Part shown: piece after piece, positions 3,822 to 44,351 of the stretch
How the letters are laid out: each line of letters opens with the position of its first letter
How positions within the stretch are numbered: position 1 is the first letter of the stretch
Source of the DNA: Curvibacter soli
GTDB lineage: Bacteria; Pseudomonadota; Gammaproteobacteria; Burkholderiales; Burkholderiaceae_C
Length of the DNA: 64,000 bases
NCBI RefSeq assembly: GCF_029211125.1
Contig: NZ_JARGEN010000051.1
Location: 1 to 64,000 of the forward strand
Direction: 5' to 3'
Notes under the pieces: generated by a model
Told to the model about the DNA's origin: nothing
Database searches by the model: none
What the model saw: only the letters and a program-made list of their open reading frames with translations
Translations under genes and position numbers: made by a program

Positions 3822-4937
3822 TCAGATGCGGTGGTGCAGCCGATCTGTCGTACCACGCAGTCTGGCGATCAGCGCGGGGGCGATCTGCGTCAAGGGCAAA
3901 ACCTCGTCGGCGGCGCCATGGGCGATCGCCTCGCGCGGCATGCCGAACACGATGCAACTGGCCTCGTCCTGCACGAAGTTGTAGCTGCCGCTGTCGCGCA
4001 TCTCGCGCATGGCCTTCGCGCCGTCGTTGCCCATGCCGGTCAGCATCACGCCGTAGGCATTGCGCCCCACGATCTCCGCCGCGGACCTGAACAGCACCTC
4101 CACCGAAGGCTTGTGGCGGTTGACGGGTTCGCCGTCCTCCACCACGGCCACATAGTTGGCGCCGCTGCGGTTCACGCGCAAGTGCATGCCGCCCGGGGCG
4201 ATGTAGGCGTGGCCGGGCAGGATGCGCTCGCCGTTGGCCGCCTCCTTCACCGTGATCTGGCACAGGCTGTTCAGGCGCGCGGCGAAGCTGGTGGTGAAGC
4301 CCGGCGGCATGTGCTGCGTGATCACGATGGCCGGCGAGTCGGCGGGCATCTGCACCAGGATTTCCTTGATGGCCTCGGTGCCGCCCGTGGAGGCGCCGAT
4401 GAAGATCAGCTTCTCGGTGGAGAGGCGGCCCAGCAGCGATGCCGGCGCCCGAGGCGCGGCGGGCGTGCCATGCGGCGCTGCACCGCCCTCGCCCGCCGGC
4501 GCATGGGCGGACGTACCGAAGTGCGCCCTTCGCACGTGGGCCACGGCGGCCACGCGGATCTTCTCGACGATCTCGTGCGCCAACTCGTTCAGGCCGTTGG
4601 CCAGCCCCACGCGCGGCTTGGCCACGAAATCGACTGCGCCCAGCTCCAGCGCCTTGAGCGTGACTTCCGCGCCCTTTTCGGTCAGCGTGGACACCATCAC
4701 CACGGGCATGGGGCGCAGGCGCATCAGCCGGCCCAGGAAGTCGATGCCGTCCATGCGCGGCATTTCGACGTCGAGCGTGATCACGTCGGGACTGCGCTCG
4801 CGGATCATCTCGCGCGCGATGAGCGGGTCGTTGGCCGTGCCGATGCATTCCATGTCCCGCTGCCGATTGATGATCTCCGACAACAGGCTGCGCACCAGCG
4901 CCGAGTCGTCGACCACGATCACGCGTATTTTTTTCAT
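3822..4937 (-). CDS. cheB: chemotaxis methylesterase/deamidase CheB
   Basis: CheB removes methyl groups from chemoreceptor glutamates and is activated by phosphotransfer from CheA. The N-terminal receiver domain (about residues 1-120) has Asp56 in [13 protein letters not shown] as the phospho-acceptor. A linker follows, then the CheB esterase domain with its triad: Ser in [10 protein letters not shown], His in QHMPPGF and Asp in [11 protein letters not shown]. The length of 371 residues is normal. The ATG at 4937 begins [12 protein letters not shown], the usual receiver start; upstream extension of the frame overlaps cheD and is not expected. It is the last gene of the minus-strand chemotaxis operon, 20 bp after cheD. 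Confidence 0.96.
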
Positions 4938-4957: not shown

Positions 4958-5692
4958 TCAGAACAGATCGACCGAGCCACCCGCGGTCTTCTGGGCCACC
5001 GCCACGACATTGCCCTTGACCTCCTGCGCCACCAGCGTCTCGGGATGGGCATGCGCCAGACGCTTGACCATCGCCTTGCCGGTGACGGGGAAGAAGCACA
5101 CCTTGCGCGGATAGATGTCCAGCACATCCTCTGACACCACGGGAATGCGCTCGGTGTGCAGGTAGTCGATCACGAACTTGGTGTTGCGCTCGCCGACGTT
5201 CATGGTCGTGAAGTTGTGCATCACCTGCGCGCCGCCGAATATCTTGGCCTGCATGCTCTCGCGGCGCGCGCCCAGCTTGAGCATTTCGTTGATGAGCAGC
5301 TCCATCGCATAGGAGCCGTAGCGCCCCGAAATATCGGCCGAATCGCCATCGGGCAGCATGAAGTGGTTCATGCCGCCCGTGCGCATGCGGCTGTCCCACA
5401 GGCAGGCGGCAATGCACGAGCCCAGCACCGTCATGATGACCAGGTTCTCGTTGGCGACGTAGTACTCGCCGGGCAGTATCTTGACGGCGTTGTACTGGAA
5501 GTGATGGTCGAAATAGAAGAACGCCGCCTCGCCGGGCTTGCGCGCGCGGGTCTTCAGCTCTTCCAGCGACGACTGCGGCGCCGGCCCGCCGGCAACCGGC
5601 AGCAGCGCCGCGTTGAGCGGCGCCATGCGCGGGATGCGGCGCCGGTCCATGGCCCCGCCGGCAGGCAAGGAAGGCGAAGGAATTTCACTCAT
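4958..5692 (-). CDS. cheD: chemoreceptor glutamine deamidase CheD
   Basis: CheD deamidates glutamines in receptor methylation regions. The catalytic Cys93 ([13 protein letters not shown]) and His110 ([11 protein letters not shown]) are present, as is the downstream motif [10 protein letters not shown]. At 244 residues it has about 50 residues more than minimal CheD at the N-terminus, rich in Pro and Ala; internal Met15 or Met23 could be alternative starts. The C-terminus ends in GSVDLF, identical to the last six residues of the CheZ-like protein encoded at 9829-10275 in the same operon. The gene lies between cheR and cheB, the standard betaproteobacterial order. Confidence 0.93.
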
Positions 5693-5764: not shown

Positions 5765-6652
5765 TCATATGCGCTCGTAGACGGTTTTGCCGCGCAGCGC
5801 GAACAGATCGCGCGACTCGCTGAAGTTTTCAGCATGCCCCACGAACAGCAGCCCCTTGGGCTTGAGCACGCGGTGGATGCGCTCCAGCACCTGCCGCTGC
5901 GTGGCGGCATCGAAATAGATCATGACGTTGCGGCAGAACACCGCATCGAATGGCTCGCGGAACGGCCAGTCGTTGCGGATCAGGTTCACGCTGATGAAGT
6001 CGATGACCCGCCGCAATTCCGGCTTGGCGCGCACCATGCCTTCGTTGGTGCCCTTGCCGCGCAGGAAGAAGCGATGCAGCCGCGCCGCATCCAGGCCCTT
6101 GAGCGCATCGGCGCGGTAGACGCCCGTGGCAGCGGAAGCCAGCACCTTGGAGTCGATGTCGCTGGCAACCAGCTTGAAGTTGGCCGAGGCGCCCAGCACC
6201 TCGAACGCCGTCATGGCGATGGAGTACGGCTCCTCCCCCGTGGAGGCCGCGTTGCACCACACGCGCCAGGACGACGCCGCAGGCCGCAACCGCAGGTATT
6301 CGGCCAGTATCTCGAAGTGGTGCGGCTCGCGGAAGAACGCGGTGAGGTTGGTGGTGAGCGCGTTGACGAACTCCTGCCATTCGGGGCCGTCGTCGGACTG
6401 CAGCCAGTCCAGGTATTCGCGAAAGCTCGCATAGCCCGTCTCGCGCAGCCGGCGCGACAGCCGGCTGTACACCATCGCGTGCTTGCCTTCGTGCAGATGG
6501 ATGCCGGCGCGCTGGTAGATCAGGGACTGGACCTTGGCGAAATCGTCGCTGGTCCAGACGAACTCGCGTCCCTGCTCCAGGGGCCCGGAAGTCGGCGCGA
6601 TGCCGCTCTCCGCGCGGCGGGGCAATGTGCTGGCGGATGGTCTGGCAGACAT
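5765..6652 (-). CDS. cheR: chemotaxis protein methyltransferase CheR
   Basis: CheR methylates receptor glutamates using S-adenosylmethionine. The N-terminal helical domain (about residues 20-95) is followed by a class I methyltransferase fold with the SAM motif CNAASTGEEPYSIAM. FDAVFCRNVMIYFD is the family's conserved catalytic-domain motif. The frame extends to a TTG at 6679, but the ATG at 6652 is preceded by a GGGGG-TAAG purine run at good spacing, so I start there (295 residues). The gene sits between cheW and cheD. No chemoreceptor gene lies between cheW and cheR, as is seen in some relatives. Confidence 0.95.
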   Translation of the reverse strand: MSARPSASTLPRRAESGIAPTSGPLEQGREFVWTSDDFAKVQSLIYQRAGIHLHEGKHAMVYSRLSRRLRETGYASFREYLDWLQSDDGPEWQEFVNALTTNLTAFFREPHHFEILAEYLRLRPAASSWRVWCNAASTGEEPYSIAMTAFEVLGASANFKLVASDIDSKVLASAATGVYRADALKGLDAARLHRFFLRGKGTNEGMVRAKPELRRVIDFISVNLIRNDWPFREPFDAVFCRNVMIYFDAATQRQVLERIHRVLKPKGLLFVGHAENFSESRDLFALRGKTVYERI

Positions 6653-6701
6653 CAACGGCTTACCCCCATCATTTCCCAAGAGACGAAGGCAACCTGCGCG
6701 C

Positions 6702-7193
6702 TCAAGCTTCCGCGGGAACCAGCCCCATGTCGACGCTCGACATGAGCTTTTCGATGTCCAGCAGGATCAGCATGCGCTCGCCCACCGAGCCCAGGCCGAG
6801 GATGCAGCCGTTGTCGATCACGCTTTCGATGTCGGGCGCGGCCTTGATGTTGTCGGGCGTCAACTCCATCACGTCGCTCACCGAATCGACCACGATGCCC
6901 ACCACGCGGTTGCGCAGGTTCAGGATGATCACGACCGTGAAGTTGTTGTATTCGGCATTGGCGCAGTTGAACTTCAGCCGCATGTCCACGATCGGCACGA
7001 TGGTGCCGCGCAGGTTCACCACGCCCTTGATGAATTCCGGCGCATTGGCAATGCGCGTCGGTGGCTCGTAGCCCCGGATTTCCTGGACTTTGAGGATGTC
7101 GATGCCGTATTCCTCCTGGTCCAGGCGGAAGGTCAAGTACTCGCGCGCCCCGGAGGACGCCGCTTCGCCGGTCTTTCCCATGATCATGCTCAT
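6702..7193 (-). CDS. cheW: chemotaxis coupling protein CheW
   Basis: CheW links chemoreceptors to the kinase CheA in the polar array. The 163-residue protein is a single CheW domain. Recognisable segments are EYLTFRLDQEEYGIDILKVQ, the loop GYEPPTRIANAPEFIKGVVN and LRGTIVPIVDMRLKF. The first 15 residues are a poorly conserved leader. It follows cheA by 24 bp and precedes cheR by about 50 bp, which indicates co-transcription. Confidence 0.96.
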   Translation of the reverse strand: MSMIMGKTGEAASSGAREYLTFRLDQEEYGIDILKVQEIRGYEPPTRIANAPEFIKGVVNLRGTIVPIVDMRLKFNCANAEYNNFTVVIILNLRNRVVGIVVDSVSDVMELTPDNIKAAPDIESVIDNGCILGLGSVGERMLILLDIEKLMSSVDMGLVPAEA

Positions 7194-7217: not shown

Positions 7218-9374
7218 TCAGTGGCGTGCACGCCGCACCAGCCCTGCGGTATCGAGAATCAACGCCACCTTGCCGTCGCCCAGGATGGTGGCGCCGGAGA
7301 TGTTCGGGATCTTCCGGTAGTTGCTCTCCAGGTTCTTCACCACGACCTGGTGCTGCCCCAGCAGTTCGTCCACCAGCAGCGCCACGCGGCTGCCGTCGGC
7401 TTCGACGACCACCATGATGTTGCTGGACTTCTCGAAGTCGAAGCGCGGTACCTGGAACACCTTCTCCAGCGCGATCACCGGCATGTATTCCTCGCGCACC
7501 TTGACGAGTTGCGAGCCCTGCGCCACGGTGCTGACCGACGACTGGTTGACCTGGAAGGACTCGACCACCGACGACAGCGGCAGGATGTAGACCTCGTCGC
7601 CCACGCCCACCGACATGCCGTCCATGATGGCCAGCGTGAGCGGCAGCCGCACCGACACACGCATGCCGTAGCCCTCGGCGGAGTCGATCTCCACCGTACC
7701 GTTCAGGGATGCGATGTTGCGCTTGACCACGTCCATGCCCACGCCACGGCCCGACACGTCGGTCACCTCTTCGGCCGTGGAGAACCCCGGCGCGAAGATG
7801 AGCTGCCAGACGTCGGCATCGCTCATCTGGTCCGAAACCTCCAGGCCGCGCTCGCGCGCCTTGGCCATGATCTTGGTGCGCGAGAGGCCACGCCCGTCGT
7901 CGCGCACCTCGATCACGATGGAGCCGCCCTGGTGCGAGGCAGATAGCGTGATGGTGCCGTGCTCGGACTTGCCCTTGGCCAGCCGGTCCGCGGGCAGCTC
8001 GATGCCGTGGTCGCAGCTGTTGCGCACCAAGTGGGTCAGCGGGTCGGTGATTTTCTCGACCAGGCCCTTGTCCAGCTCGGTGGCCTCGCCGTGCGTCACC
8101 AGATCAACCTTCTTGCCCAGCTTGTTGGCCAGGTCGCGCAGCATGCGTGGAAAGCGGCTGAACACGATGGACATCGGAATCATGCGGATCGACATGACCG
8201 ATTCCTGCAAGTCGCGCGTATTGCGGTCCAGGTCCGCCAGGCCCGCCAGAAGCTGCTGGTACACCGCGCCATCGAGGCCGCGGCTGTTCTGCGCCAGCAT
8301 GGCCTGCGTGATGACCAGCTCGCCCACCAGGTTGATGAGCTGGTCGACCTTGCTGACCGCGACGCGGATGGTGGCGGTCTCCATCTGCGCCTGATTGGCA
8401 ACCTTGGGCTCGGCAGCCTTGCCGGTGGCGGCGCTGGCCCCCGCCTTGGCGGCGACGGCGTCTCCGGCAGGCTTTGCATCGGCCGCCATGCCTGTCGGCG
8501 CACCGGGCGCGCCGGCAAAGAAACCGAAGCCGGCATTCCCCATGACTCCGTCCACCGCGGCGGCGACCGCGGGCCGCTCCGCGGCAGCGGTGGCGGTGGC
8601 GGCCTGGTCGACGATCCGGACCTGCTCCTTGGCCACATGGAACGCGAAGAGATCCAGCAGATCGGCGTCCGACGAATTCGTCTGCACCGCGAACACGCGC
8701 ATGCCCGCATCGCCGCCCGGCACGGCAGTGATGGTGCCCAGGCCTGGAATGTCGCGGAACAGCTCCGTCAAAGCATCTGCCTGCTCGGGGTGGGACAGAG
8801 GCCCGATGCGGATCTCCAGCCTGCGCGCGCCTGCCGCATCGCCGCCCGCTGCCACCGAAGCCGCGGCGGGCGGCGCAGGGACGGCCACCGGCGCCACAAC
8901 CGGGGACGCCGCCACGGGCGCAGGGGCAGGCGCAGGGGCAGCGGCATCGGGCACGACACCCGCCGCCAGTTCGCTGATGCGCCGCACGAGATCGGTGGTC
9001 GACACTGCCTCGCCTTCGCCGCCCGCCTGGTGGCGCGCGAGCAGGCTGCGCGATGCGTCGGCGGATTCCAGCAGCACATCCACCATGGGCGGAATGGCCT
9101 GCAACTCGTGGCGCCGCAGGCGGTCGAGCAGCGACTCCATGTGGTGGGTCAGTTCAGCCACGTCGGAGAAGCCGAAAGTGGCGGCCCCGCCCTTGATCGA
9201 ATGGGCGCAGCGAAAGATGCCATTCAACTCTTCGTCGTCGGCCGTGCCAAGGTCCAAGTCCAGGAGCATCTGCTCCATATGGTCGAGGTTCTCGCCCGCC
9301 TCTTCGAAGAAGATTTGGTAGAACTGGCTGAGGTCGAAATCTGCGCCTGCACCCTCTTGCTGCGTTTCACCCAT
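7218..9374 (-). CDS. cheA: chemotaxis sensor histidine kinase CheA
   Basis: The central kinase of chemotaxis, 718 residues. P1 is the histidine phosphotransfer domain with His58 in RCAHSIKGGAATFGF. A long Ala/Pro-rich linker (about residues 135-185) and a P2-like domain (about 190-255) follow. A second Ala-rich linker leads to the dimerisation helices (ETATIRVAVSKVDQLINLVG), the ATP-binding domain (N box HLVRNSCDHGIE, G boxes DDGRGLS and GRGVGMDVV) and the C-terminal CheW-like P5 domain. Both CheY proteins of this window and CheB are its expected phosphotransfer partners. The gene lies between cheY and cheW. Confidence 0.97.
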   Translation of the reverse strand: MGETQQEGAGADFDLSQFYQIFFEEAGENLDHMEQMLLDLDLGTADDEELNGIFRCAHSIKGGAATFGFSDVAELTHHMESLLDRLRRHELQAIPPMVDVLLESADASRSLLARHQAGGEGEAVSTTDLVRRISELAAGVVPDAAAPAPAPAPVAASPVVAPVAVPAPPAAASVAAGGDAAGARRLEIRIGPLSHPEQADALTELFRDIPGLGTITAVPGGDAGMRVFAVQTNSSDADLLDLFAFHVAKEQVRIVDQAATATAAAERPAVAAAVDGVMGNAGFGFFAGAPGAPTGMAADAKPAGDAVAAKAGASAATGKAAEPKVANQAQMETATIRVAVSKVDQLINLVGELVITQAMLAQNSRGLDGAVYQQLLAGLADLDRNTRDLQESVMSIRMIPMSIVFSRFPRMLRDLANKLGKKVDLVTHGEATELDKGLVEKITDPLTHLVRNSCDHGIELPADRLAKGKSEHGTITLSASHQGGSIVIEVRDDGRGLSRTKIMAKARERGLEVSDQMSDADVWQLIFAPGFSTAEEVTDVSGRGVGMDVVKRNIASLNGTVEIDSAEGYGMRVSVRLPLTLAIMDGMSVGVGDEVYILPLSSVVESFQVNQSSVSTVAQGSQLVKVREEYMPVIALEKVFQVPRFDFEKSSNIMVVVEADGSRVALLVDELLGQHQVVVKNLESNYRKIPNISGATILGDGKVALILDTAGLVRRARH

Positions 9375-9413: not shown

Positions 9414-9776
9414 CTAACGTATGACTTTCTGTATGACTTCGATCAAGCGATTGGGATCGAACGGCTTGACGAGCCAGCCCGTCGCGCCGGCGGAGCGGCC
9501 CGCCTGCTTCATCTGGTCGCTGGATTCGGTGGTGAGGATCAGGATCGGGATGGTCTTGAACTTCGGGTTCTCGCGCAGGCGCCGAGTCAGCCCGATGCCG
9601 TCGAGCCGCGGCATGTTCTGGTCGGCCAGCACGAGGTCGATTGCGTGGTTCTGCGCCTTCTCGTAGGCGTCTTCGCCATCCACCGCCTCGACAACGTTGT
9701 ACCCGGCGCCAGTGAGCGTGAAGGAAACCATTTTGCGCATCGACGGGGAATCATCAACGGCGAGGATCGACTGCAT
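9414..9776 (-). CDS. cheY: chemotaxis response regulator CheY (first copy)
   Basis: A single-domain receiver of 120 residues. It has the acidic pair D8-D9, phospho-acceptor Asp52 in LVLADQNMPRLDG, the switch Thr in ILTTESSD and the conserved Lys in WLVKPFDPN. The start is the ATG at 9776 (MQSILAVDDS). It is clearly different from the second CheY at 43317-43703. This type, encoded next to cheA, often serves as motor signal or as phosphate sink; the sequence does not say which. A CheZ-like phosphatase candidate lies immediately upstream, as a true cheZ does beside the second copy. Confidence 0.95.
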   Translation of the reverse strand: MQSILAVDDSPSMRKMVSFTLTGAGYNVVEAVDGEDAYEKAQNHAIDLVLADQNMPRLDGIGLTRRLRENPKFKTIPILILTTESSDQMKQAGRSAGATGWLVKPFDPNRLIEVIQKVIR

Positions 9777-9828: not shown

Positions 9829-10275
9829 TCAGAAGAGATCCACGGAGCCTGCGTCCATTTCGCTTTGGGTGACGGGGTTGGGGCGGTCCGGCTCCATTTC
9901 GGCGAAGGGCGCGGGCTCTTCGTCCTCTTCGTGGCCCATGGTTTCCGCGGCGATCCGGAAAGCACACCCTTGCAGCACCTTGGTGGTGTGCCAGATCAGC
10001 TGCGAAGCCATGTCATGAAATTGCAGCTCGGTCACGGCGGCGCGCAAGGCCTGCCGCGCCTCGGACAGTTGAGCGGAATCGGCCATGGCAGCCGTTGCGC
10101 AGAGCAGGGTGTTGGCAACCCCGAAGCGCTCCAGCAGATTGTCCGTCGCATGGCTGAGCAAGCCCTCGAGCCGCTGCAGGTCGTGCATGGCCGTCAGCAG
10201 CGAATCCTGCAATTCCGCAGCGACCATGACCGGCAGCCTCACCCCTGGCTCTGAAGACGCTGAGGTTGCTTCCAT
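9829..10275 (-). CDS. small CheZ-like protein, putative CheY phosphatase
   Basis: A 148-residue helical protein, first gene of the chemotaxis operon. Residues 84-93 read LQFHDMASQL. This aligns with the CheZ catalytic segment DFHDLTGQV of the true CheZ at 43707-44351, keeping the key Asp (D88) and the Gln four residues later (Q92). After an acidic, Pro-rich tail the protein ends in MDAGSVDLF, placed like the CheY-binding tail of CheZ (here DDLLASLGF). The six residues GSVDLF also end CheD. The start at ATG 10275 has a GGAG ribosome site five bases upstream; longer frames reach 10368. It is too short for standard CheZ and lacks most of its long hairpin. The phosphatase role is inferred from the motif and from the neighbouring cheY. 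Confidence 0.6.
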   Translation of the reverse strand: MEATSASSEPGVRLPVMVAAELQDSLLTAMHDLQRLEGLLSHATDNLLERFGVANTLLCATAAMADSAQLSEARQALRAAVTELQFHDMASQLIWHTTKVLQGCAFRIAAETMGHEEDEEPAPFAEMEPDRPNPVTQSEMDAGSVDLF

Positions 10276-10487: not shown

Positions 10488-11606
10488 ATGCTCCCTCCAG
10501 CGTATGACGGGCCCAGGCCCATTCGCATTCTTCATCTGGAAGACTCGCCGGCAGACCACCAGTTGGCGCTCGCCGCACTGCGCAAGACGGCCATGCCGTG
10601 CGACATGCGCCGCGTAGATTCCCTGGGCGAGTTCGCCCGCGAAATCGCCGAACGCGAGTTCGATGTCATCCTCGCCGACTACCGCCTGCCGGGGTTCACG
10701 GCACTGGACGCCTGGCGCCTGCTCTCGGCGCATCCATCACACCCGCCGTTCATCCTCGTCTCCGGCGCGATCGGCGAAACTGCGGCCGTCGACGCCCTGC
10801 ACCACGGTATCAGCGATTATTTGCTGAAGGAAGACATGCACCGCCTGGGCCGCGTGGTGGCGCGCGCGCTGGAGGTGCACGAAGCCCGCGTGGCACGCGA
10901 ACGCGCTGCCGCCGCCCTGACGGCCTCGCGCCAGCAGCTCGCGGAGCTGACCGAACACCTGCAGACCTCCATAGAGCAGGAACGCGCGGCCATCGCGCGC
11001 GAGATCCACGACGACATCGGCGGCTCGCTGGCCGCCGTGCAGTTCGACCTCGCATGGATCGTCCGCCATGCGGGCGACACCGAGCAACGCCGGCACGCAC
11101 AGGCCGCGCAGGACATGCTGCAGCATGCCCTGGGGGCCAGCCAGCGCATCATGATGAACCTGCGTCCGCCCGTGCTGGATCAGGGGCTGGTGGCGGCCAT
11201 TCAGTGGCTGGCGCGCAACTTCGAGCAGCGCACCGCGATCGCGGTGGATTTCCATGCCACGGCGGAACACATCCCCGCGTCCCAGCCAGTGCAGCTCGTC
11301 GCCTACCGCACGGCGCAGGAGGCACTGACCAATGTGTCCAAGTACGCGCAATGCAGCCGCGTGCGCATCGACCTGTCGGGCAGCGAGAACGTCCTGACGC
11401 TCGAAGTGTCCGACAACGGGCAAGGCCTGGCCATGGGATCGCTGGACAAGCCCCGCGCCTTCGGGCTCAAGGGCCTGCGCGAACGCGCCCGCACGGTGGA
11501 CGGCTGGCTCGACGTGGGCAGCCAGGCCGGGCGCGGCACCTCGGTCACGCTGTCCGTACCGCTGTCCGCTGACGCCGCGCCCTCCGGCGAAGAGGACGCG
11601 CCATGA
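10488..11606 (+). CDS. REC-histidine kinase hybrid (HisKA_3 family)
   Basis: A soluble kinase of 372 residues with an N-terminal receiver (about residues 12-130, phospho-acceptor Asp64 in VILADYRLPGF). A helical linker follows, then a NarX/DegS-type dimerisation domain with His174 in AIAREIHDDIGGSL and a HATPase_c domain (EALTNVSKYAQ, DNGQGLA, GLKGLRERA). It has no sensor, PAS or membrane segment, so the receiver itself must be the input, either from another kinase or by binding a partner. The stop overlaps the start of the regulator gene by four bases (ATGA), showing tight coupling. It diverges from the chemotaxis operon. Its targets are unknown; the location suggests motility but does not prove it. 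Confidence 0.85.
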   Translation: MLPPAYDGPRPIRILHLEDSPADHQLALAALRKTAMPCDMRRVDSLGEFAREIAEREFDVILADYRLPGFTALDAWRLLSAHPSHPPFILVSGAIGETAAVDALHHGISDYLLKEDMHRLGRVVARALEVHEARVARERAAAALTASRQQLAELTEHLQTSIEQERAAIAREIHDDIGGSLAAVQFDLAWIVRHAGDTEQRRHAQAAQDMLQHALGASQRIMMNLRPPVLDQGLVAAIQWLARNFEQRTAIAVDFHATAEHIPASQPVQLVAYRTAQEALTNVSKYAQCSRVRIDLSGSENVLTLEVSDNGQGLAMGSLDKPRAFGLKGLRERARTVDGWLDVGSQAGRGTSVTLSVPLSADAAPSGEEDAP

Positions 11607-43316: not shown

Positions 43317-43703
43317 GTGGCAAATGCCCTTCGATTTCTGATCGTCGACGATTTTTCTACGATGCGGCGCATCGTGCGCAACCTGCTCAAGGAAAGCGGC
43401 TACTCCGAAGCCGACGAGGCCGAGGACGGCGTCGCGGCGCTCAACAAGCTGCGCAACAGCAAGTTCGACTTCGTCGTGACCGACATCAACATGCCCAACA
43501 TGAACGGCTTCCAGTTGCTGGCCGAGATCAAGCAGGACGAGAAGCTCAAGCACCTGCCGGTCCTGATGGTGACCGCCGAGGCGCGCAAGGAAGACATCGT
43601 GGCGGCCGCGCAAGGGGGTGCTGCAGGCTACATCGTCAAGCCATTCACGAAGGCCACGCTCGAAGAGAAGGTCGCCAACATCCTGAAAAAGCTGGGGATG
43701 TAA
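43317..43703 (+). CDS. cheY: chemotaxis response regulator CheY (second copy)
   Basis: A 128-residue receiver close to enteric CheY in sequence: acidic pair D11-D12, phospho-acceptor Asp56 in [14 protein letters not shown], Thr in [12 protein letters not shown] and Lys in [14 protein letters not shown]. It starts with GTG (ribosome site AAAGGG six bases upstream). It lies directly before cheZ with a three-base gap. Its likeness to enteric CheY suggests that it is the main signal to FliM; this is inference. Confidence 0.96.
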
Positions 43704-43706
43704 GAC

Positions 43707-44351
43707 ATGGAGCCCAGCGACGCCCCCGTACCCGCCGCCTCCCCGGAGCCCGAGAACTCGCAGGACCTGCACAAGAAGATCGGCCTCCTCACGCGCCAGT
43801 TGCACGACGCGCTCAACGAACTGGGCTATGCCGACAAGCTGCGCGGCACCATGGGCGATCTGCCAGACGCCCAGAGCCGGCTGTCCTACATCGCCCGGCT
43901 GACCGGCGATGCCGCCGAGAAAGTGCTGGGCCGCGTCGAGCAGGCCAAGGCGCAGAACGACCAGTTGTGCGAGGAAACGCAGCGCGTCAAGGCGGGCCTG
44001 ATCAAGGACCCCGTGGCCGCCGTCGCCACCGGCGTCATCATGAACTACCTCTTGGACGTGCTGAAGGCCACGCAGGACACGGACGCCCACCTGACCGAGA
44101 TCATGATGGCGCAGGACTTCCACGACCTGACCGGCCAAGTCATCGCCAAGGTGGTCAACCTCGTGGCCACCATCCAGAACCAACTGGTGCAACTGTTGAT
44201 CCAGACCGCCCCGCCCGAGGCGGTGCCCGTCGTCATGACGGAGACCAAGCGCGAAGGGCTGCAAGGCCCCATCGTGGACCCGACCAACGCCCCCGACGTC
44301 GTCACCGACCAGTCGCAGGTCGACGACCTGCTGGCCAGCCTGGGGTTTTGA
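43707..44351 (+). CDS. cheZ: CheY-phosphate phosphatase CheZ
   Basis: CheZ removes phosphate from CheY. The 214-residue helical protein has the catalytic segment EIMMAQDFHDLTGQVIAKVV with Asp140 and Gln144, and the C-terminal CheY-docking tail SQVDDLLASLGF. The start ATG follows cheY by three bases. The small protein at 9829-10275 shares the catalytic motif, so the genome probably has two CheZ-type activities. Confidence 0.97.
   Translation: MEPSDAPVPAASPEPENSQDLHKKIGLLTRQLHDALNELGYADKLRGTMGDLPDAQSRLSYIARLTGDAAEKVLGRVEQAKAQNDQLCEETQRVKAGLIKDPVAAVATGVIMNYLLDVLKATQDTDAHLTEIMMAQDFHDLTGQVIAKVVNLVATIQNQLVQLLIQTAPPEAVPVVMTETKREGLQGPIVDPTNAPDVVTDQSQVDDLLASLGF

Follow-up and report, generated by a model that had tools for sequence, protein, structure and literature searches.

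The locus examined here raises the question of what a 148 amino acid long protein with a CheZ-type DxxxQ motif does directly in front of cheY1, when a true CheZ is encoded beside a second cheY of the same region. The window, i.e., the whole 64,000-nucleotide stretch of Curvibacter soli DNA that was analysed (contig NZ_JARGEN010000051.1), contains the corresponding gene, referred to here as mini, at positions 9829 to 10275 of the minus strand, with an ATG at 10275. The open reading frame had been recognised in a preliminary description, which left the strand unstated and also gave the protein beside cheY1 the coordinates 9829-9776, which is a slip; the plus-strand reading of this interval is interrupted by stops. 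In the translation, LQFHDMASQL occupies residues 84 to 93 (positions 9997 to 10026, minus strand) and contains D88 and Q92 where they had been placed; family conservation marks it as a putative phosphatase site. The protein ends with the conserved peptide RPNPVTQSEMDAGSVDLF (residues 131 to 148; positions 9832 to 9885, minus strand), a putative docking peptide that is shared with receptor forms of the protein. Our best explanation is that Mini is a stand-alone two-helix module, which combines a CheZ-type F-x-D-x-x-x-Q site with a docking peptide and most likely ends the CheY1 signal, a reading that we put at a probability of a little under 0.6.

The gene order on the minus strand is mini-cheY1-cheA-cheW-cheR-cheD-cheB. 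Mini is followed by cheY1 (positions 9414 to 9776), which encodes the putative substrate of 120 amino acids (PF00072, E = 2.4e-29), and by cheA (7218 to 9374), which encodes 718 amino acids and was named from its translation. The reading frames of cheW (6702 to 7193) and cheR (5765 to 6679, with a provisional TTG start) were named from sequence and are syntenic in two loci of the genus g19 (L243 and L245). The cheD gene (4958 to 5692) matches NCBIfam PRK13487 CheD (E = 1.1e-99) and its product ends with GGSVDLF, and cheB (3822 to 4937, with an ATG at 4937) was again named from sequence. Because cheY1, cheA, cheW, cheR, cheD and cheB all come after it on the same strand, mini is the head of the operon, as had been proposed. 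On its 5' side, a divergently oriented gene, read by eye as a receiver-kinase, begins at 10488. The second pair is located on the plus strand at 43317 to 44351, between motB and flhB (both read by eye), and consists of cheY2 (43317 to 43703; PF00072, E = 3.2e-33) and the adjoining cheZ (43707 to 44351), which encodes a true CheZ of 214 amino acids (PF04344, E = 1.8e-59). Control of the mini operon by sigma-28 was considered and dropped: the promoter consensus does not occur upstream of the operon, and its 17 matches across the window compare with 11 expected. An Rfam scan of the window gave nothing above cut-off, and a tblastn search with the Mini protein against the PLSDB plasmids had zero matches.

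Conservation and predicted structure

Scanning genome contigs yielded 177 confirmed relatives, of which the best 80 were retained; the closest named relatives of the genome, from Acidovorax, Simplicispira and Comamonas, indicate a Comamonadaceae-like bacterium. With the genome of the window counted, mini was found in 18 of 40 related genomes, which at the sensitivity of this search corresponds to 18 of 24 genomes of the same family and none of 16 from other families. Across 90 distinct family sequences, that of the window included, no substitution occurs at Q85, F86, D88, M89, Q92 or L93, and the tail RPNPVTQxEMDAGS[IV][ED]LF is mostly invariant as well; the acidic linker (about residues 116 to 128) varies much more than the end of the tail does. 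A cheY1 match begins no more than 250 bp downstream of mini in all 100 loci inspected, among which the window itself is counted and a few genomes appear twice, and cheA follows within 1.2 kb in 99 of them, the exception (L012) being a contig end. The invariance of Q85, F86, D88 and Q92, together with this constant neighbour, indicates that the DxxxQ observation is more than chance. Entropy over 27 sequences is zero at Q85, D88, Q92 and H96, which on a projection of helix 2 lie opposite the hydrophobic moment, on a roughly polar face that also holds V81 and M89. This placement is as expected of a surface site, as far as a rough projection can indicate.

AlphaFold2, run with 73 sequences, predicted with high confidence two helices (residues 16 to 61 and 68 to 112) and with low confidence an irregular linker and a short C-terminal helix (residues 137 to 142), at a mean pLDDT of 76.9. 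Structure searches with such a two-helix hairpin are uninformative. Foldseek found no match to the predicted structure in the PDB at E ≤ 0.001, and the second search with VIA-align gave a best Z of 12.2 and returned the receptor hairpins 3g67, 6s1k and 1qu7 together with many two-helix proteins of no relation; neither aligner had CheZ within the 50 matches listed. A sequence search of the PDB yielded the repeat protein Tako8, matched solely via repeated 14-residue scraps, and one weak match (E = 1.7). The Pfam and NCBIfam scans gave no match above cut-off for Mini or its stand-alone relatives, which agrees with the earlier suggestion that the window protein may belong to an undescribed family. 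In the open-licence PMC literature, no paper was found that treats this protein or describes chemoreceptors with a CheZ-type module.

A module shared with chemoreceptors and the C-terminal tail

The profile of the Mini family, when run over the class, matched 52 of 274 genomes at E ≤ 0.01, three of which belong to the same family, and a combined profile run over the phylum matched 130 of 398 genomes at this threshold, with many weaker matches that span the helix-2 part alone. Among 27 loci outside the family that were read, 24 contain a receptor signalling tip (21 by a stricter pattern). PF00015 is present in all seven receptor forms scanned, with six of six among the non-family loci, and MCP models alone were matched by receptor forms in the Pfam and NCBIfam scans. 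Taken without any filter, the 27 loci have Q[FY]xDxxxQ in every case, a final phenylalanine in 26 and an end of the type [VI][DET][LF]F in 24. Five Mini family sequences and 24 of these 27 loci were combined into an alignment of 29 sequences (A4), which omits L149 and L153 for their divergent tails and L155, which failed the cutting pattern. Its invariant columns are one alanine, Q(-3), the aspartate, Q(+4) and the final phenylalanine, where the invariance of Q(-3) is partly built in, because the cutting pattern was [LM]Q[FY]x[DE]xxx[QN].

Profile comparisons by hhalign, for which 22 receptor forms were used, extend this homology to both helices. Helix 2 plus tail of the Mini family matched the receptor forms with P = 1.4e-20 (probability 99.3), and helix 1 matched the helix before the receptor hairpin with P = 8.7e-6 (probability 83); mismatched controls gave P values of 0.15 to 0.28 for helix 1, and of 0.24 and 0.003 for helix 2. 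The profile matches that recruited the receptor forms fall across the hairpin from helix 1. As both flanking helices match, Mini corresponds to the receptor module minus its signalling hairpin. Short chemoreceptors of about 330 to 460 amino acids share with Mini a homologous helix 1, a DxxxQ helix 2 and a GD[IV][ED]LF-type peptide, but have their two helices separated by the MCP signalling hairpin, which Mini, L209 to L211 and L216 lack. By eye, many of them look membrane-anchored at the N-terminus.

Longer stand-alone or receptor forms with the motif and tail of Mini are also found at cheY1 in five genomes from other families of the order. The gene just before a cheY1-type cheY encodes a stand-alone protein of 191, 182 or 194 amino acids (L209 to L211) or a receptor form of 404 amino acids (L217), and in L218 a 388 amino acid long receptor form is encoded about 880 bp before such a cheY. 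A distant genome within the same family (L216) has in this slot a gene for a 139 amino acid long form with 38% identity to Mini. The neighbouring CheY proteins of these six loci are 58-71% identical to CheY1 and 36-40% identical to CheY2.

Several other DxxxQ proteins and gene clusters were encountered. L214 (positions 3867 to 4340) and L215 (978 to 1508) encode members of a separate family of 157 to 176 amino acids with MQFQDxTRQQLEHV and a SIDLF or EVDLF end, directly upstream of a cheY close to cheA; the L214 protein has a weak NCBIfam CheZ match (E = 0.0077). A 204 amino acid long protein with QFYDAMTQ and no ELF end (L173, 4579 to 5193), probably another DxxxQ protein, is encoded within a cheA-cheW-MCP-cheR-cheD-cheB cluster, as read by eye. 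In L168, L171 and L177, receptor forms adjoin, also by eye, a gene for an approximately 100 amino acid long STAS-like protein and a receiver-bearing gene of 550 to 580 codons, suggesting a recurrent cluster type. L237, L238 and L239, from two genera of the same family, encode receptor forms of 331 to 335 amino acids that end with GGDITFF near a cheY whose product is 45-47% identical to CheY1.

Within the window, only two ORFs of at least 60 amino acids end with [VI][DEST][LF]F, namely mini (GSVDLF) and cheD (GGSVDLF), and 80 of 89 CheD homologues in the loci examined, which are mostly from the same family with a few genomes counted twice, end with [VI][DE]LF. The terminal peptide is therefore the one of CheD and the receptor forms and not a CheZ tail, and the tail of Mini may dock on a partner common to CheD and these receptors. 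The segment VTQSEMDA of the tail also gives the impression of a resemblance to the N-terminal CheY-binding peptide of FliM (LSQEEVDALL in the FliM of the window). Receptor pentapeptides provide a precedent for docking of CheR and CheB. By analogy with them and with the CheT-CheR complex described in the accessible part of PMC12654446, CheR or CheB could be alternative docking targets of the Mini tail.

This leads to the alternative that Mini is no enzyme and acts as a docking adaptor, with a structural hairpin and a GS[IV][ED]LF peptide by which it would tether CheY1 or CheA in a CheS-like manner, or else CheR or CheB. The tail is the most conserved part besides the DxxxQ site and is common to CheD and the receptor forms, and CheS, a protein of other function, is encoded directly upstream of cheY1-cheA in rhizobia. 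The complex that CheT of Sinorhizobium meliloti forms with CheR (PMC12654446, available text) also favours an adaptor. However, this proposal leaves unexplained why stand-alone and receptor forms alike retain D88 and Q92 without exception, at a spacing of four residues on a single helix. A further argument against it is that none of six motif-less receptors in the loci examined ends with [VI][DE]LF, two of them ending with EFVKF or EFVRF. We consider an adaptor without catalytic function rather unlikely.

Pairing with CheY1 and relationship to CheZ

The co-occurrence of mini with CheY1 was surveyed in 200 genomes of the family, with that of the window counted (mini profile at E ≤ 1e-4, CheY1 at E ≤ 1e-42). 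Mini was matched in 123 genomes, CheZ in 133 and CheY1 in 126. Mini is present in 122 of the 126 genomes with CheY1, versus 1 of 74 genomes without it, and in this single genome (G698) the match is a receptor form (L239). The same holds among the 133 CheZ-bearing genomes, where mini occurs in 116 of 120 with CheY1 versus 1 of 13 without; because the genomes are related, Fisher P-values overstate this link. Four CheY1 genomes (G709, G717, G723 and G826) lack mini by profile and all have CheZ; in their loci (L248 to L251), cheY1 starts at most about 260 bp from the divergent kinase gene. Conversely, six genomes have mini and no CheZ match, and all six keep CheY1; at E ≤ 1e-20, CheY2 is likewise unmatched in five of the six. 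No CheY1 genome lacks both mini and CheZ, but as only about 0.2 such genomes are expected by chance, we do not claim that one of the two can be lost, but never both.

The survey also bears on the possibility that Mini duplicates the function of CheZ, as another phosphatase acting on the motor regulator CheY2 or on both CheYs. The operon shared with cheA would fit this idea, as would the 4, 6 and 0 CheY1 genomes (out of 126) that lack mini, CheZ and both, respectively, a pattern that is not significant. Since the presence of mini tracks CheY1 and not CheZ, and five genomes keep mini in spite of having no CheY2 match, we regard it as improbable. The view that each CheY has its own CheZ-type protein accordingly stands for the pairing itself, i.e., Mini with CheY1 and CheZ with CheY2, as supported by synteny and the 200-genome survey, but not for the assignment of Mini to CheZ.

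The AXXFQ/DXXXQ motif pair of CheZ is described in the accessible text of PMC7750401. CheZ carries the active-site motif F-[QH]-D-x-x-x-Q on helix 2 of a hairpin, as does Mini, and its architecture of hairpin, flexible linker and C-terminal helix is likewise predicted for Mini, where the last helix has low confidence. In contrast, Mini is shorter (148 versus 214 amino acids for the CheZ of the window) and its tail ends with S[IV][ED]LF instead of VDDLLxSLGF. The CheY-binding peptide Q-x-x-V-D-x-L-L-x-S-L-G-F is invariant in 30 CheZ rows, and Mini has QxEMDAGS[IV][ED]LF in its place. The window protein matched neither PF04344 nor the NCBIfam CheZ model, the 25 Pfam families listed at E ≤ 10 for 27 members of the Mini family do not include CheZ, and BLASTP of Mini against the CheZ of the window gave nothing significant.

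More sensitive comparisons gave a mixed picture. Comparing the Mini family with CheZ by hhalign resulted in P = 0.16, and in P = 0.0022 once receptor tails were added, which is to be read against P = 0.003 for a control of Mini helix 2 with another receptor coiled coil. Scored with the CheZ HMM, 99 Mini sequences had a mean of 2.26 bits, versus -1.64 for shuffled and -0.74 for reversed sequences (99th percentile of the shuffles, 3.3 bits; maximum of the reversed, 5.6 bits); as these sequences are close relatives, the shift does not amount to 99 independent tests. In the best of these alignments, the motif aspartate lies within four positions of the catalytic aspartate of CheZ in 78 of 99 sequences. 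L216 matched PF04344 with E = 0.014 and 15.7 bits, below the cut-off of 30.7, and was not counted as a member, because equally weak matches to unrelated families appeared in these scans. Mini and CheZ may share a common ancestor, but these comparisons do not prove it.

That Mini is a true, extremely diverged CheZ homologue would account for the common F-[QH]-D-x-x-x-Q motif, the similar hairpin and linker, the upward shift of the HMM scores and the L216 match, but it is hardly probable given the absence of CheZ from the Pfam families listed, the different tail, the close relatedness of the scored sequences and the far stronger homology to the receptor-embedded modules. The term CheZ-like phosphatase from the preliminary description can be kept for the DxxxQ site and the predicted hairpin-linker-helix architecture, but the filing under CheZ cannot. 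The same applies to the resemblance that had been seen between an acidic tail and the CheZ docking peptide, since the acidic stretch is there, but is much less conserved than the tail end, and this end differs from that of CheZ. Judging from the sequences, the label of a reduced CheZ is less apt than that of a module which elsewhere forms part of chemoreceptors of about 400 amino acids and here stands alone; its C-terminal peptide is shared with these receptors and with CheD.

Proposed signal termination and a probable output of CheY1

In E. coli CheZ, Q147 positions the attacking water and D143 forms a salt bridge to the active-site lysine of CheY. If Mini operates similarly, its tail or hairpin would dock on a partner, D88 would form a salt bridge to the active-site lysine of CheY1, and Q92 would position the attacking water on the aspartyl phosphate, so that both residues together would speed its hydrolysis, while CheZ, encoded beside cheY2, would serve CheY2. 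Besides catalysis, we infer here dimerisation of Mini, its binding to CheY1 and a docking partner for the tail. This reading of Mini as a CheY1 phosphatase has to accommodate that 4 of 126 CheY1 genomes lack mini, that the homology to CheZ is not significant and that the tail is unlike that of CheZ. Moreover, a phosphatase for CheY1 is not obviously needed, because purified CheY1 of Comamonas testosteroni CNB-1 loses its phosphate fast and unaided (PMC6391922, accessible part).

Known systems provide partial precedents. The cheT gene of S. meliloti is located at the far end of its operon, after cheD, and CheT reportedly acts on the sink CheY1. According to the accessible text of PMC12654446, CheT (Agbekudzi et al., 2024) is a small protein encoded in a che operon, which has a DXXXQ motif and no significant homology to known chemotaxis proteins, is predicted to have a CheZ-like structure and discriminates between two CheYs. 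Compared by these descriptions, CheT is on the best reading the functionally nearest relative of Mini, as both are small che-operon proteins with a DXXXQ motif. They differ in that mini comes first in its operon, before cheY1, and in that rhizobia with CheT have no CheZ (PMC8429497, available part), whereas the genome of the window has both Mini and CheZ. The same source states that CheS of S. meliloti favours the drainage of phosphate and binds both CheA and CheY1. Mini itself occupies the gene slot directly upstream of cheY1-cheA that cheS has in rhizobia. No DxxxQ motif is known for CheS. CheC, CheX and FliY belong to the function class proposed for Mini, the CheY~P phosphatases, but have a different fold and an ExxN-type site. 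In C. testosteroni CNB-1, an unpublished gene, CtCNB_4786, with low CheZ identity and a signal-quenching role is mentioned in a review (PMC6600141, accessible text); its number lies far from that of cheY1 in the che cluster (CtCNB1_0474), which makes identity with mini improbable.

Where two CheYs occur together, one of them is often assumed to serve as a phosphate sink, and the genus g19 is informative in this respect. Its two near-complete genomes (G018 and G805) have kept the order mini-cheY1-cheA-cheW-cheR-cheD-cheB (L242 to L245), although neither has a FliM, CheY2 or CheZ match. FliM was covered genome-wide in both, and fliM, fliG, fliF, flhB, motA, motB and fliR have no match within about 38 kb around the operon, a region that is partly masked in G018. 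G846, which has mini and no CheZ, has no FliM match either, while FliM is present in G710 and G800; G722 likewise gave no FliM match, but its contig also carries fliR (L247), so that an assembly gap is the probable cause, and it was not counted as FliM-less. A sink for CheY2 should be useless once CheY2 has been lost, and a pure sink role for CheY1 therefore does not predict that CheY1 and Mini are retained in g19. This retention suggests that CheY1 has an output itself, with Mini as its inferred terminator, pointing to a non-flagellar output in g19. An output of its own is probable for CheY1 also because both CheYs of the window are paired with a separate DxxxQ protein.

CheA of C. testosteroni CNB-1 phosphorylates CheY1 as well as CheY2, and deleting cheY2 abolishes chemotaxis, whereas deleting cheY1 reduces it in part; CheY1 has been proposed to be a phosphate sink (all in the accessible part of PMC6391922). 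Deletion mutants of cheA, cheY1 and cheY2 are described in the same source, as is the purification of all three proteins, which makes the question of Mini and CheY1 directly testable.

Tentatively, Mini may represent an unnamed family of CheY-phosphatase modules across Pseudomonadota, which consists of a first helix, a second helix with F-x-D-x-x-x-Q, a linker and a GD[IV][ED]LF peptide, occurs in receptor-embedded forms and as stand-alone proteins of about 190 and about 148 amino acids, serves a motor-independent CheY1 output and shares the partner of its tail with CheD. If this is true, receptors with this module would be sensor and signal terminator in a single chain. Many receptors that are now taken as plain MCPs would hold a built-in signal terminator, provided that the module has phosphatase activity.
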